Shown here piece after piece: positions 2,896-6,395 of a DNA stretch of 6,395 bases; position 1 is the first letter of the stretch; each line of letters begins with the position of its first letter. The DNA comes from Lachnospiraceae bacterium (lineage in GTDB: Bacteria; Bacillota_A; Clostridia; Lachnospirales; Lachnospiraceae). A program made the translations under genes and the position numbers. Under the pieces are notes generated by a model. It was not told the DNA's origin, searched no databases, and saw only the letters and a program-made list of their open reading frames with translations. The stretch lies in assembly GCA_003446335.1 (NCBI GenBank), contig DMAZ01000261.1, forward strand, positions 1 to 6,395, in the 5' to 3' direction.

Positions 2896-3003
2896 ATGAA
2901 AAGGGAAGAACATAAAATGAAAGGGAGGTGTTCGATATGGTATCGTTTCCGATTGATTATACTTGCAACTATCACAACGAAGACCTTACTCCGGAATGGA
3001 TGA
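2896..3003 (+). CDS. Alternative overlapping small ORF (35 codons), doubtful
   Basis: An ATG-started 35-codon frame, in a different frame from the 52-codon ORF at 2937 and overlapping its first ~67 bases. It has AAAGGA (2882-2887) eight bases upstream of its ATG, which is a usable ribosome binding site. The peptide starts MKREEHKMKGRCSIW and has a hydrophobic stretch (LIILATITT, about residues 20-28) within a basic sequence: nine Lys/Arg against two Glu. That is the look of a short basic membrane-associated or leader peptide, but also of chance out-of-frame reading. If translated, ribosomes would cover the start site of the 52-codon ORF and could control it. I do not recognise it. Confidence 0.22.
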   Translation: MKREEHKMKGRCSIWYRFRLIILATITTKTLLRNG

Positions 3004-3095
3004 AGGGCGAGAGAATTGGCTACTGCGATCAGCCGGATGCCGGAGAGAACGGTGTGCTGAGAGGTATCAGAGAGTTTTTCAGCAAATTATTCTGA
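2937..3095 (+). CDS. Small protein of unknown function, 52 residues
   Basis: The ORF begins MVSFPIDYTCNYHNEDLTPE and ends GVLRGIREFFSKLF. Support for it being real is a near-perfect ribosome binding site (AAGGGAGGTG, 2921-2930) six bases before the ATG, and an intrinsic terminator starting 11 bases after the stop codon, which together make a complete monocistronic unit. The peptide is acidic overall (9 Asp/Glu, 5 Lys/Arg), has two cysteines (10 and 30), no signal peptide and no membrane segment. The last ~14 residues could form an amphipathic helix. I do not recognise the family and assign no function. It lies between the divergent PucR gene and the T-box operon; whether it belongs to either is not visible. 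No convincing promoter was found; TATCAT (2870-2875) is a possible -10 without a good -35. Confidence 0.6.
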   Translation: MVSFPIDYTCNYHNEDLTPEWMKGERIGYCDQPDAGENGVLRGIREFFSKLF

Positions 3096-3106
3096 TGATT
3101 TAGAGC

Positions 3107-3141
3107 GGATGTGAGGAAAATAAGTTCTCACATCCTTTTTT
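3107..3141 (+). terminator. Intrinsic terminator after the 52-residue ORF
   Basis: GGATGTGAG (3107-3115) pairs perfectly with CTCACATCC (3127-3135), a 9-bp stem that can extend by a G-U and an A-U pair, leaving a 7-base loop. Six T follow (3136-3141). This separates the small gene from the T-box operon downstream. Confidence 0.92.
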
Positions 3142-3212: not shown

Positions 3213-3241
3213 TTGACAAACCTGACGACTTAAATTAGAAT
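3213..3241 (+). promoter_or_regulatory. Sigma-A type promoter of the T-box operon
   Basis: TTGACA (3213-3218, perfect -35), a 17-base spacer, then TAGAAT (3236-3241, 5 of 6 to TATAAT). The expected transcription start is near 3247-3249, immediately before the T-box leader. This is the strongest promoter in the window; it suggests vigorous initiation, with control by leader attenuation. Confidence 0.88.
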
Positions 3242-3246
3242 CTTTC

Positions 3247-3551
3247 ATTAGATGTGACAAAACATGATTGCTACATAAAATGCTATGAAGGCACTATGCA
3301 ATTTGCCAACCACTACAGAGAGCCGACGGGAGGTGCGAGTCGGAGTGAGTACAATGCGCAGTCTCATGCCGGAGCAGGTTTCCTGAAGGCGAACGCTGTG
3401 TAGGGAAATCCGGAAGGTCCCGTTATCAAGGCCAGGTACTTAGTAGAGTACTGCAGAGCGGTCGCTGTAAGCGGCAATCTGGGTGGTACCGCGATTAATT
3501 GATTAGTCGTCCCAGAGGTTCATCAAAATTTATGAGCCTCTGGGATTTTTT
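3247..3551 (+). promoter_or_regulatory. T-box leader (tRNA-sensing riboswitch), probably leucine
   Basis: A leader RNA that binds a specific uncharged tRNA and then lets transcription continue. Hallmarks in order: AGAGAG (3317-3322) followed by the distal Stem I hairpin CCGAC/GTCGG (3323-3327 with 3339-3343) enclosing GGGAGGTGCGA; the specifier region around 3358-3366; CCGTTATCAAGG near 3420, typical of the Stem II/III region; the hairpin GTACTtagtagAGTAC near 3437-3452; and the near-invariant T-box GGGTGGTACCGCG at 3481-3493. The specifier triplet is read as CTC (3363-3365), followed by A and TGCCGGAGC, which gives leucine and suits the LeuA-like gene downstream. The preceding AGT is not the usual GAA, and nearby triplets (GTC, TCT) cannot be fully excluded without folding. 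T-box identity is near certain; leucine specificity is likely. Confidence 0.95.
3511..3551 (+). terminator. Regulated T-box terminator
   Basis: CCCAGAGGTTCAT (3511-3523) pairs with ATGAGCCTCTGGG (3532-3544), a 13-bp stem with one G-U pair and an 8-base loop, followed by A and six T (3546-3551). The upstream edge TCGTCCC can instead pair with the T-box sequence at 3481-3493 to form the antiterminator, so the hairpin is a conditional stop. The LeuA-like start codon lies 27 bases after the U-run. Confidence 0.93.
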
Positions 3552-3577: not shown

Positions 3578-4987
3578 ATGAGAACACTGAAATTCATCGA
3601 CATGACCCTTAGACAGGCTGCAAATGCCCGCGGCAGAGACCTTTCCTTCAAGGAAAAACTTGAGGTCGCAAGGAGTCTCGACCGACTGAAAGCGGATACG
3701 ATCGAGCTTGCACCGATTTCGGACAGTAAGGCGGATCAGCTTGCCAACCGGACGATTGCCTCCATGGTGGTGACGAGAATCTCTGCGGCAGTCGATATTT
3801 CAGTCGGAAATATCGAGCAGACATGGGAGAGCGTGAAGACGGCGAAGAAGCCTAAATTAAATATTATCGCTCCGGTCTCGACCGTTCAGATGGAATACAT
3901 GTGCCATAAGAAAGCCGGTGCTATGCTTGACCTCATCACGGAATCCGTAAAGAAAGCCCGTTTCTACACGGAATTTGTCGAGTTCTCCGCTGAGGACGCT
4001 ACCCGTGCGGAACCGGAATTTCTGTATAAGGCTTTGAAAGCCGCTATCGAGGCAGGTGCTTATAAGATCACAGTCTGTGATACTGCGGGTATCATGATGC
4101 CGGATGAATTCGGTGCGTTTGTCAGAGGTATTATGGAAAATGTTCCCGGACTTGCGGATATTGAGCTTTACGTTGAGATCAGGGATACCATTAATATGGC
4201 TCTTGCATGCGCAGCACAGGCAGTGCGTGAGGGCGCGGTAGGTGTCAAATGCACGGCTGTCCCGAACGGATATCCTACCATGGAGGAACTTGCCAGATTC
4301 GTGGAAGTCAAGGGCAACGATCTTGACGTCACGACACAGGTCCGTGTGACAGAACTCCACCGCTCAGTCGGACAGCTGAGAAAGATCCTCGATCCTCAGG
4401 AAGATGAGCAGTCCCGCTTCAGCAATCTCGGTCTTGAGGATATTGCAAATGTCTGCCTGGACCGCAACGATGACATCAGTGAAGTGACGAAGGTCGTTCG
4501 CCAGATGGGCTATGATCTCAGCGAAGAGGATAATGCCCGCGTGTTCGAGTCCTTCAAGCGCGTAGCCGATAAAAAGACTTATGTCGGGACCAAGGAGCTG
4601 GATGCGATCATTGCAAGTACCGCCATGCAGGTCCCATCTACCTATACGTTGAAAAATTATGTCATCAACAGCGGCAATGTCATTACGGCAACGGCCAATA
4701 TCCTTCTTGTGAAAGAGGGGGAGGAAATCAGAGGCGTCGGTATCGGTGACGGACCGATCGATGCATCTTTCCAGGCTATTGAGCAGATCATAGGACATCA
4801 TTACGAACTGGATGACTTCCAGATCCAGACGGTGACCGAAGGACGGGATGCCATGGGAAGCGCTCTTGTCAAGCTTCGTGCCGGCGGCCGGGTCTATTCC
4901 GGTAACGGTATTTCGACAGATATTATCGGCGCTTCGATCAGGGCCTATATCAGTGCTTTAAATAAGATCGTCTATGAGGATGCTTAA
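3578..4987 (+). CDS. Isopropylmalate-synthase-like protein with LeuA regulatory domain, non-canonical active site
   Basis: 469 residues, shorter than typical bacterial 2-isopropylmalate synthases (about 500 or more). Residues 1-250 follow the HMGL/DRE-TIM barrel: IDMTLRQAAN at 7-16, STVQMEY at 101-107, FSAEDATR at 136-143, CDTAGIMMPDEF at 167-178. Residues ~300-350 match the linker helices. Residues ~360-465 are a clear LeuA allosteric/dimerisation domain (GDGPIDASFQAI at 390-401, STDIIGASIRAY at 446-457). The catalytic signature is lost: LRDGEQ is LRQAAN, so the metal-ligand Asp is Gln13; HxHND falls at EIRDT (200-204), and there is no histidine at all from 111 to 260; GIHQDG is absent. A standard acetyl-CoA/ketoisovalerate condensation is therefore unlikely. 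It could be a leucine-binding regulatory or scaffold protein, or an enzyme with changed chemistry. ATG 3578 has AAAGGA ten bases upstream. It is first in the T-box operon. Confidence 0.9.
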   Translation: MRTLKFIDMTLRQAANARGRDLSFKEKLEVARSLDRLKADTIELAPISDSKADQLANRTIASMVVTRISAAVDISVGNIEQTWESVKTAKKPKLNIIAPVSTVQMEYMCHKKAGAMLDLITESVKKARFYTEFVEFSAEDATRAEPEFLYKALKAAIEAGAYKITVCDTAGIMMPDEFGAFVRGIMENVPGLADIELYVEIRDTINMALACAAQAVREGAVGVKCTAVPNGYPTMEELARFVEVKGNDLDVTTQVRVTELHRSVGQLRKILDPQEDEQSRFSNLGLEDIANVCLDRNDDISEVTKVVRQMGYDLSEEDNARVFESFKRVADKKTYVGTKELDAIIASTAMQVPSTYTLKNYVINSGNVITATANILLVKEGEEIRGVGIGDGPIDASFQAIEQIIGHHYELDDFQIQTVTEGRDAMGSALVKLRAGGRVYSGNGISTDIIGASIRAYISALNKIVYEDA

Positions 4988-5001: not shown

Positions 5002-6395
5002 TTGAAACTGTCATTTTCAATACAGAACTGGAACAATATGAGCTGGGATGAATACTGCAATGTAGCTGTTTACACACGGATGCAGGGCATCGAGCTTTAT
5101 GATATACACGGACCTGTTTTTCGCGGGAAGGGGAGTCCGGCCAACCCGGAGCGCGCAGCCTCCGTAAGGCGCCATCTGATCGCGGATCATCTGCAGCTCC
5201 CGTGTATCAACACCGTAAATGATTTTACGGCTCCGGAGTTCATCGGGGAATTCAGGGAATGTCTCACCGTTGCTGTCAATCTCGGCATAAGCTGCATCGG
5301 TATACACACAGCGGAAGCGGATGCGGAAAAGTGCATGGAACCGCTCGGAGTGCTGCTCGAGCTGGTCGGGGAGAAGCCGGTGACGGTACTGGTGGAGACA
5401 GCGGACGCCTATGCGGATACAAGCCGCCTGAGGGATCTTCTTAATCGTTTCTCCGACGATCGGCTCGCCGCTCTCTGGGATATGCATACGACGGTATTTA
5501 CGGCCGGAGAGAGTGCGGAGAAGACCATCACGAATCTGGGCGCGTATGTGAAACATGTGCATATTCATGATTGCCGGAGAGAAGACGGAAAAATCATTCC
5601 CGAACTCATCGGAGAGGGTGAGCTTCCGCTGCAGGAACTGATGGATGCCCTTCGTTCAGTTAACTATGACGGATACGTTTCCCTGGAGTGGGATCCGAAC
5701 TGGATGGAAGGTCTTGAGGACATTGAGATCATCCTGACACATTTTGAGAACGGGATGAGACCGTTTGAAAATACCAAGCGCGGTAAGCGGCACCTCTACT
5801 GGAGCAACCGCCATGTCGGTCGGTATGTCTGGAAGAAAGGGACACTGATCGATAAAACGTTTCCGCAGGTGTTGGATACAATGGTCGAAGAATTCCCGGA
5901 TCAGACGGCGATCCGCTATACGACCCTGGACTATACGAGGACGTACAGTCAGTTCCGTGACGATGTCGATGAATTTGCCCGTACACTGGTCTCCCTCGGC
6001 GTGAAGGCAGGATCCAAGGTCACGATCTGGGCGACAAATGTTCCCCAGTGGTTCCTGACATTCTGGGCGACTACGAAGATCGGTGCAGTCCTTGTTACGA
6101 TGAATACCGCTTACAAGATCCATGAGGCGGAGTATCTGCTCCGCCAGTCGGATACCCATACGCTGGTCATGATAAGCGGTTACAGGGATTCCGATTATAA
6201 CGCGATCATAAACGAGCTCTGTCCGGAGCTCAGGGACAACAAGCCCGGACAGCCGCTGCACGCGAGGAGACTTCCTTTCCTTCGCAATGTCATAACTGTC
6301 GGTTTCCGCATGCCGGGTGCTCTGACCTGGGAAGAATCGCTCGAGTATGCTTCCCGTACACCGATCGAGGAAATCAACCGTATGGCAGCGGCCGT
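5002..6395 (+). CDS. Fusion: xylose-isomerase-like TIM barrel + AMP-forming acyl-CoA synthetase (3' end outside window)
   Basis: Starts at TTG and is open for 464 codons to the window edge with no stop. Residues ~2-250 form a sugar-phosphate isomerase/epimerase (AP endonuclease 2-like) barrel: KLSFSIQNW at strand 1, YDIHGP, VETAD (E132), WDMH (D160, H162), HVHIHD (H185, H187, H189, D190), IGEGELPL (203-210) and VSLEWDP (E229). The set of acidic and His metal ligands is intact, so the barrel may be active. After a linker (~250-275), residues from ~285 match the N-terminal part of an AMP-binding acyl-CoA synthetase: EEFPDQTAIRY, LVSLGVKAGSKVTIW, NVPQWFLTFWATTKIGAVLV and NTAYKIHEAEYLLRQSD. The ATP-binding Ser/Thr/Gly loop and the later motifs lie beyond the window. 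Such ligases make acyl-CoA from a carboxylic acid, ATP and CoA; the substrate is unknown. It lies 14 bases after the LeuA-like gene, so it is probably in the same T-box-controlled transcript. Confidence 0.9.
   Translation, partial: MKLSFSIQNWNNMSWDEYCNVAVYTRMQGIELYDIHGPVFRGKGSPANPERAASVRRHLIADHLQLPCINTVNDFTAPEFIGEFRECLTVAVNLGISCIGIHTAEADAEKCMEPLGVLLELVGEKPVTVLVETADAYADTSRLRDLLNRFSDDRLAALWDMHTTVFTAGESAEKTITNLGAYVKHVHIHDCRREDGKIIPELIGEGELPLQELMDALRSVNYDGYVSLEWDPNWMEGLEDIEIILTHFENGMRPFENTKRGKRHLYWSNRHVGRYVWKKGTLIDKTFPQVLDTMVEEFPDQTAIRYTTLDYTRTYSQFRDDVDEFARTLVSLGVKAGSKVTIWATNVPQWFLTFWATTKIGAVLVTMNTAYKIHEAEYLLRQSDTHTLVMISGYRDSDYNAIINELCPELRDNKPGQPLHARRLPFLRNVITVGFRMPGALTWEESLEYASRTPIEEINRMAAA

Follow-up and report, generated by a model that had tools for sequence, protein, structure and literature searches.

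We found a 469-aa protein, here called LeuX, that descends from the 2-isopropylmalate synthase (IPMS) LeuA and is, on strong grounds, judged from its sequence to be dead as an IPMS. Ligand loss, a single clade, the pattern of retained columns and dN/dS lead us to regard LeuX as a selected protein that appears to have given up IPMS chemistry and retained its leucine-sensing part. In our preferred reading, held with even confidence, this catalytically dead IPMS descendant would be the leucine sensor of an isovalerate-to-leucine operon, with feedback on the acyl-CoA ligase encoded beside it. Site loss, a kept regulatory domain, a leucine T-box, gene pairing and frequent LeuA absence can all be read from the DNA; isovalerate as the substrate, the direction of the pathway, leucine binding by LeuX, contact and allosteric control of the ligase are what we infer.

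The LeuX protein and its former catalytic site

The window, that is, the whole 6,395-nucleotide stretch analyzed, carries leuX with the following features.

3578..4987, + strand: leuX, encoding a 469-aa LeuA derivative that lacks the metal site (ORF, profile matches and tree)
3587..4360, + strand: HMGL-like (DRE-TIM) barrel, residues 4–261 (Pfam HMGL-like, 125 bits)
3614..3616, + strand: Q13 in the metal-Asp position (alignment to solved IPMS)
4175..4189, + strand: EIRDT, residues 200–204, in the HxHND metal position (alignment to solved IPMS)
4589..4969, + strand: LeuA_dimer leucine regulatory domain, residues 338–464 (Pfam, 108 bits)

The preliminary description had Gln13 of LRQA and EIRDT replacing the metal motifs, and indeed LRD and HxHND of solved IPMS align onto LRQ (LRQA starts at residue 11) and EIRDT. 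It further claimed that no His lies between residues 111 and 260 and that the GIHQDG segment is missing; His occurs only at 110, 261, 407 and 408 of the 469 aa, a scan of the 469-aa translation found no GIHQ, HND or GER string, and the GIHQxG segment, which we take to carry the catalytic His of IPMS, is deleted in the alignment with canonical LeuA. The same alignment shows a further loss beyond those listed before, that of the GERxGN loop in the barrel. What had been called well kept is present as well: the fold motifs EDATR (residue 139) and CDTAG (residue 167), and a complete C-terminal LeuA domain. The DRE-TIM barrel fold was found with Pfam and in a structure model, although the VIA-align comparison scarcely probes the C-terminal part of that model. 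LeuX scored below the cut-offs of IPMS models (TIGR00973, 286.8 vs. 598.7; NF002086, 304.2 vs. 532; NF002991, 55 vs. 455). Lacking the catalytic features by which an IPMS is defined, LeuX is not filed as one here.

LeuX is not a peculiarity of one strain. At least 8,000 relatives were scored in a protein search, and the 120 among the matches listed had 66–94% identity. A genome scan confirmed at least 577 LeuX stretches, and the best 80 were taken as loci L001–L080; their titles describe MAGs or uncultured Clostridia (among them Lachnospiraceae, Oscillospiraceae, Blautia, and Christensenella), and ruminant gut is a frequent source. We aligned 318 rows, a redundant set of 237 database proteins, these 80 loci and the window, three of which are gapped at residue 12. 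At most one of the three metal ligands survived in any of the 318 rows, and it did so in four. Among the 81 sequences from the best 80 loci and the window, the metal Asp survived in 2 of 78; of the two metal His, the first was present in 0 of 81 and the second in 2 of 81. In a tree of 53 rows, including 26 of the 81 LeuX sequences, LeuX formed a single clade (support 100/100) that was nested, on a long stem, within bacterial-type LeuA.

Conservation within LeuX was concentrated in the regulatory domain. Of the columns that do not vary across 12 canonical LeuA, LeuX kept 14 of 15 in this domain vs. 39 of 97 in the barrel and 4 of 36 in the section between them, where "kept" means retained by at least half of 26 LeuX rows. 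The mean frequency of the majority residue across the 81 sequences was 0.85 in the regulatory domain, the most conserved part of the family, vs. 0.64 in the barrel. Between the window and its nearest relative (L001), dN/dS was 0.028 overall (barrel, 0.030; regulatory domain, 0.012) at a dS greater than 1, and an internal stop occurred in one of the 81 sequences (L010). These results bear out the earlier view that the gene is not a decaying pseudogene; the tree that had been advised as a check for a conserved clade does show one, and it is large.

The barrel under such strong purifying selection raises the possibility that LeuX is still an enzyme, running a new metal-independent reaction on the ligase product or a 2-oxoacid with leucine feeding back. 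We consider this unlikely, albeit the foremost alternative. Arg12, for which a pure sensor would have no use, is retained in 269 of the 318 rows, and the same polar residues recur at the old metal site (for the most part E/Q13, Q/E200, S202, and D/N203), so that the barrel may still host a ligand or a reaction. However, the metal ligands are lost together with the GERxGN loop and GIHQxG, and fewer than half of the LeuA-invariant barrel columns survive. A replacement metal site was also considered and rejected, as E/Q at 13 and 200 did not covary significantly (p = 0.08 for all rows; p = 0.57 on 90 representatives).

The leucine T-box and the genes of the operon

A promoter-like site and a T-box leader precede leuX, in agreement with the dedicated promoter and T-box that had been ascribed to it.

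3213..3241, + strand: sigma-70-type promoter-like site, TTGACA-17-TAGAAT (identified by consensus match alone, at 11 of 12 bases)
3276..3517, + strand: T-box leader, RF00230 (covariance match, 106.6 bits; gathering score, 93)
3363..3365, + strand: specifier codon CUC (Leu) (Rfam alignment; same offset in relatives)
3509..3546, + strand: intrinsic terminator hairpin of the T-box (−25.7 kcal/mol, z = −7.4)

We surveyed 75 LeuX sequences with 330 nt upstream, including the window and drawn from the best 80 of at least 577 loci, and found the T-box core motif in 65. All 65 readable leaders specify leucine: a fixed-offset rule read CTC in 54 and CTG in 10 (64 of 65), and L058, which the rule misplaces, was read as CTG by eye. 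Rfam scored a T-box over the gathering score in 10 of 15 leuX loci tested. The remaining 10 of the 75 sequences lacked the motif, and Rfam detected no T-box in those ten (nine and L038) either. The CUC triplet reportedly confers leucine control on the ilv-leu operon of B. subtilis (Marta, 1996). There is good reason to think that the leuX operon serves leucine supply. Control of leu genes by a leucine T-box is known in other bacteria (PMC2494555).

Farther upstream, the window encodes a PucR-type regulator (PucR, GGDEF_2, and HTH_30; 1553–2701, − strand), divergent from leuX. Between pucR and the T-box lie a 52-codon ORF (2937–3095, + strand) and then a terminator-like hairpin (3107–3135). Relatives of DUF362, CorA and PucR were found beside LeuX in L001 only, among the best 80 of at least 577 loci, several contigs being short.

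Downstream, a ligase gene starts 14 nt after the leuX stop.

5002..6393, + strand: 5′ part of a gene that joins a xylose-isomerase-like TIM barrel to an AMP-forming acyl-CoA synthetase, running off the window (ORF and Pfam)

The fusion has a full length of 832 aa in L001. It lies 3′ of leuX in the window and in 77 of the best 80 of at least 577 loci; the contigs of the other three end within 333 nt. LeuX-linked ligases formed one clade in a tree with 22 of them (100/100), and they belong to a PRK12583-like group. LeuX and ligase distances were correlated (55 loci, r = 0.88), as expected for a unit that is inherited together. Compared with NCBIfam, the fusion had fatty-acid CoA ligases on top of its 25 best models, none of them over cut-off.

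Among 246 genomes of one order (that of G001), the fused ligase occurred in all 11 LeuX genomes (two matches partial), and also without LeuX in nine others (one match partial), all nine with yeast-type LeuA. Strict coupling of ligase and LeuX was thereby ruled out. In eight of these nine, no T-box motif, LeuX or PFOR was found in the 6 to 14 kb read around the ligase (G273, only ~300 nt upstream), so the ligase itself is not tied to a leucine job. The isomerase-site residues E132, D160, H189 and E229 were kept in 43, 25, 31 and 23 of 53 LeuX-linked ligases, respectively, and in 8, 8, 0 and 8 of 8 LeuX-less ligases. An intact isomerase site as a rule was rejected given the loss of metal residues in many LeuX-linked copies (L001:11550–14048 and relatives). 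The two degenerate barrels of LeuX and the ligase might dock, which is a guess.

We examined the neighbors further downstream by tblastn, within 8.5 kb, in 45 loci whose downstream flank spans 7 kb (among the best 80 of at least 577). PFOR or VOR genes were found in 30 of the 45, comprising 25 PFOR-like loci and five with VOR-type genes and an MbcS-like ligase, and 15 of the 45 showed neither in the 8.5 kb by tblastn. Just past this range, L069 and L071 have VOR genes, and L059 and L057 have VOR or PFOR genes on the upstream side. The operon PFOR of L001 scored 1729 bits for TIGR02176 (cut-off, 911). Operon PFOR formed a clade separate from housekeeping PFOR (12 vs. 13 sequences, 100/100; housekeeping fragments of G016 and G024 and a PFOR interrupted by a stop codon, L160, were left out of the tree), and the two were 53–57% identical within the same genome (ten genomes). 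Eleven of 33 group-specific changes fall in residues 39–118, which, from the roles of PFOR residues, we take to be near the pocket. The ligases within the VOR clusters have MbcS as best model, below cut-off. In L064, an acyl-CoA synthetase (14324–16591; best model MbcS, below cut-off) is fused to HTH and cupin domains and adjoins CbiA-like and VOR genes; it is possibly a self-regulating ligase. In 18 of the best 80 of at least 577 loci (e.g., L061:13940–14773), the ligase and PFOR genes are separated by an amidohydrolase gene (PF04909) that does not fit into the pathway proposed below.

Leucine genes of LeuX genomes and the proposed role

The preliminary description had advised checking for a canonical leuA in the same genome. 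We found canonical LeuA (E 1e-120 in the 246-genome set) of either type in 165 of the 246 genomes, that is, 140 with one type plus 29 with the other (27 of the 29 over cut-off) minus four shared. LeuX was present in 11 of the 246 (at least 434 bits; next match, 307). None of these 11 had canonical LeuA vs. 165 of the other 235 (Fisher's p = 3e-6, with kinship ignored). Of the 32 genomes reached via the 80 loci, two carried bacterial-type and six carried yeast-type LeuA over cut-off. Overall, canonical LeuA was detected in 8 of 42 LeuX genomes and not in 34. LeuB was over cut-off in 4 of these 42 (two more partial, just under) vs. 22 of 38 LeuX-negative genomes, and IlvC was found in 13 of 42 vs. 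22 of 38. Single absences are soft, because genome completeness was not given and the first LeuA pass scored part of the candidates. Three LeuX genomes (L128, L129, and L130) encode an HMGL-like protein of 459–468 aa that matches no NCBIfam model at 1e-60. The aligned copy has retained an HGHND motif, and this protein is possibly a Re-citrate synthase.

The earlier account left open whether LeuX had changed its reaction or served as a leucine sensor, decoy subunit or scaffold. This choice was well framed, and the retention of regulatory columns over those of the barrel and middle part favors the sensor. As LeuX lacks an active site, has kept its leucine domain intact and is constantly paired with the ligase, the simplest account is that it reports leucine to this ligase. 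When charged tRNA-Leu is short, the T-box would open. The ligase would then convert isovalerate to isovaleryl-CoA, the simplest acyl-CoA, and a PFOR/VOR-type oxidoreductase would combine it with CO2 and reduced ferredoxin to give 2-oxoisocaproate, which an aminotransferase would turn into leucine. LeuX would bind leucine and exert feedback on the paired ligase, as HisZ does on HisG. More tentatively, we propose that the operon may be the gene set of the isovalerate carboxylation route of the rumen, replacing LeuABCD in many uncultured gut Clostridia, with LeuA surviving only as a leucine sensor that acts allosterically on an isovaleryl-CoA-forming ligase.

LeuX could instead be a leucine sensor or scaffold in a pathway other than isovalerate carboxylation, acting on another acid or running the same enzymes backwards to break down 2-oxoisocaproate; we judge this improbable. 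The sequence of the predicted ligase points to no particular acid, with none of its 25 best NCBIfam models over cut-off, and the amidohydrolase has no role in the isovalerate route. Nevertheless, most LeuX genomes yielded neither LeuA nor LeuB, and a leucine T-box, which responds to a shortage of charged tRNA-Leu by switching genes on, disfavors the breakdown direction. It is far less probable that LeuX forms mixed dimers with canonical LeuA via LeuA_dimer, as its decoy or regulatory subunit. LeuX does branch with bacterial-type LeuA and its dimer domain is intact, and eight LeuX genomes would offer a partner; however, as canonical LeuA was not found in 34 of 42, the decoy role once envisaged is unlikely as a general one. 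Finally, a pseudogene or decaying copy, as the missing catalytic residues might suggest, is ruled out by the low dN/dS, the single internal stop in 81 sequences, and the family-wide conservation, T-box and operon included.

If the sensor reading is true, the leuX operon supplies testable genes for the long-known rumen pathway to leucine from a volatile acid, and helps to explain the leucine source of gut Clostridia lacking LeuA. It would also mean that a feedback site has outlived its enzyme and been passed to another pathway. Database names for LeuX-like proteins are hypothetical protein, LeuA regulatory-domain protein, or 2-isopropylmalate synthase, and the last label overstates leucine prototrophy.

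Comparison with known systems

In a search of open-licence literature, we found neither a description of a LeuA pseudoenzyme nor genes for the isovalerate route. LeuX shares the DRE-TIM barrel and the LeuA_dimer domain with LeuA (TIGR00973, PRK00915 group) and lies within bacterial-type LeuA, whereas it has other operon partners and lacks GIHQxG, the GERxGN loop and all three metal ligands (Asp and two His). Operon PFOR has the same usual domains as PFOR of TIGR02176, although it forms a clade apart from the housekeeping enzyme.

Allison is said to have reported the carboxylation of isovalerate to leucine in the rumen in 1962 and 1966. Leucine formation by this carboxylation is established in the rumen (PMC7356843). 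The route would need an acyl-CoA synthetase and a ferredoxin-dependent carboxylase; the leuX operon encodes a predicted synthetase and, in 30 of 45 loci, has a candidate oxidoreductase nearby, and many relatives come from ruminant gut. The route is known as physiology, and the open-licence literature search turned up no gene assignment for it. As for the ligase, MbcS of Staphylococcus aureus activates branched short-chain acids and hardly uses isovalerate (PMC10026030). MbcS-like genes occur with VOR genes downstream of leuX in five loci, whereas the LeuX-paired ligase is PRK12583-like and fused to a TIM barrel.

LeuX is enzyme-derived, has lost its site and is under selection, as a regulatory pseudoenzyme would be. 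HisZ derives from a dead HisRS. As a protein in its own right, it mediates amino-acid feedback on the catalytic ATP phosphoribosyltransferase HisG (PMC9734150). HisZ/HisG is an analogue of how LeuX would work and is not homologous to it, the counterpart on the LeuX side being the gene pairing with the ligase only.
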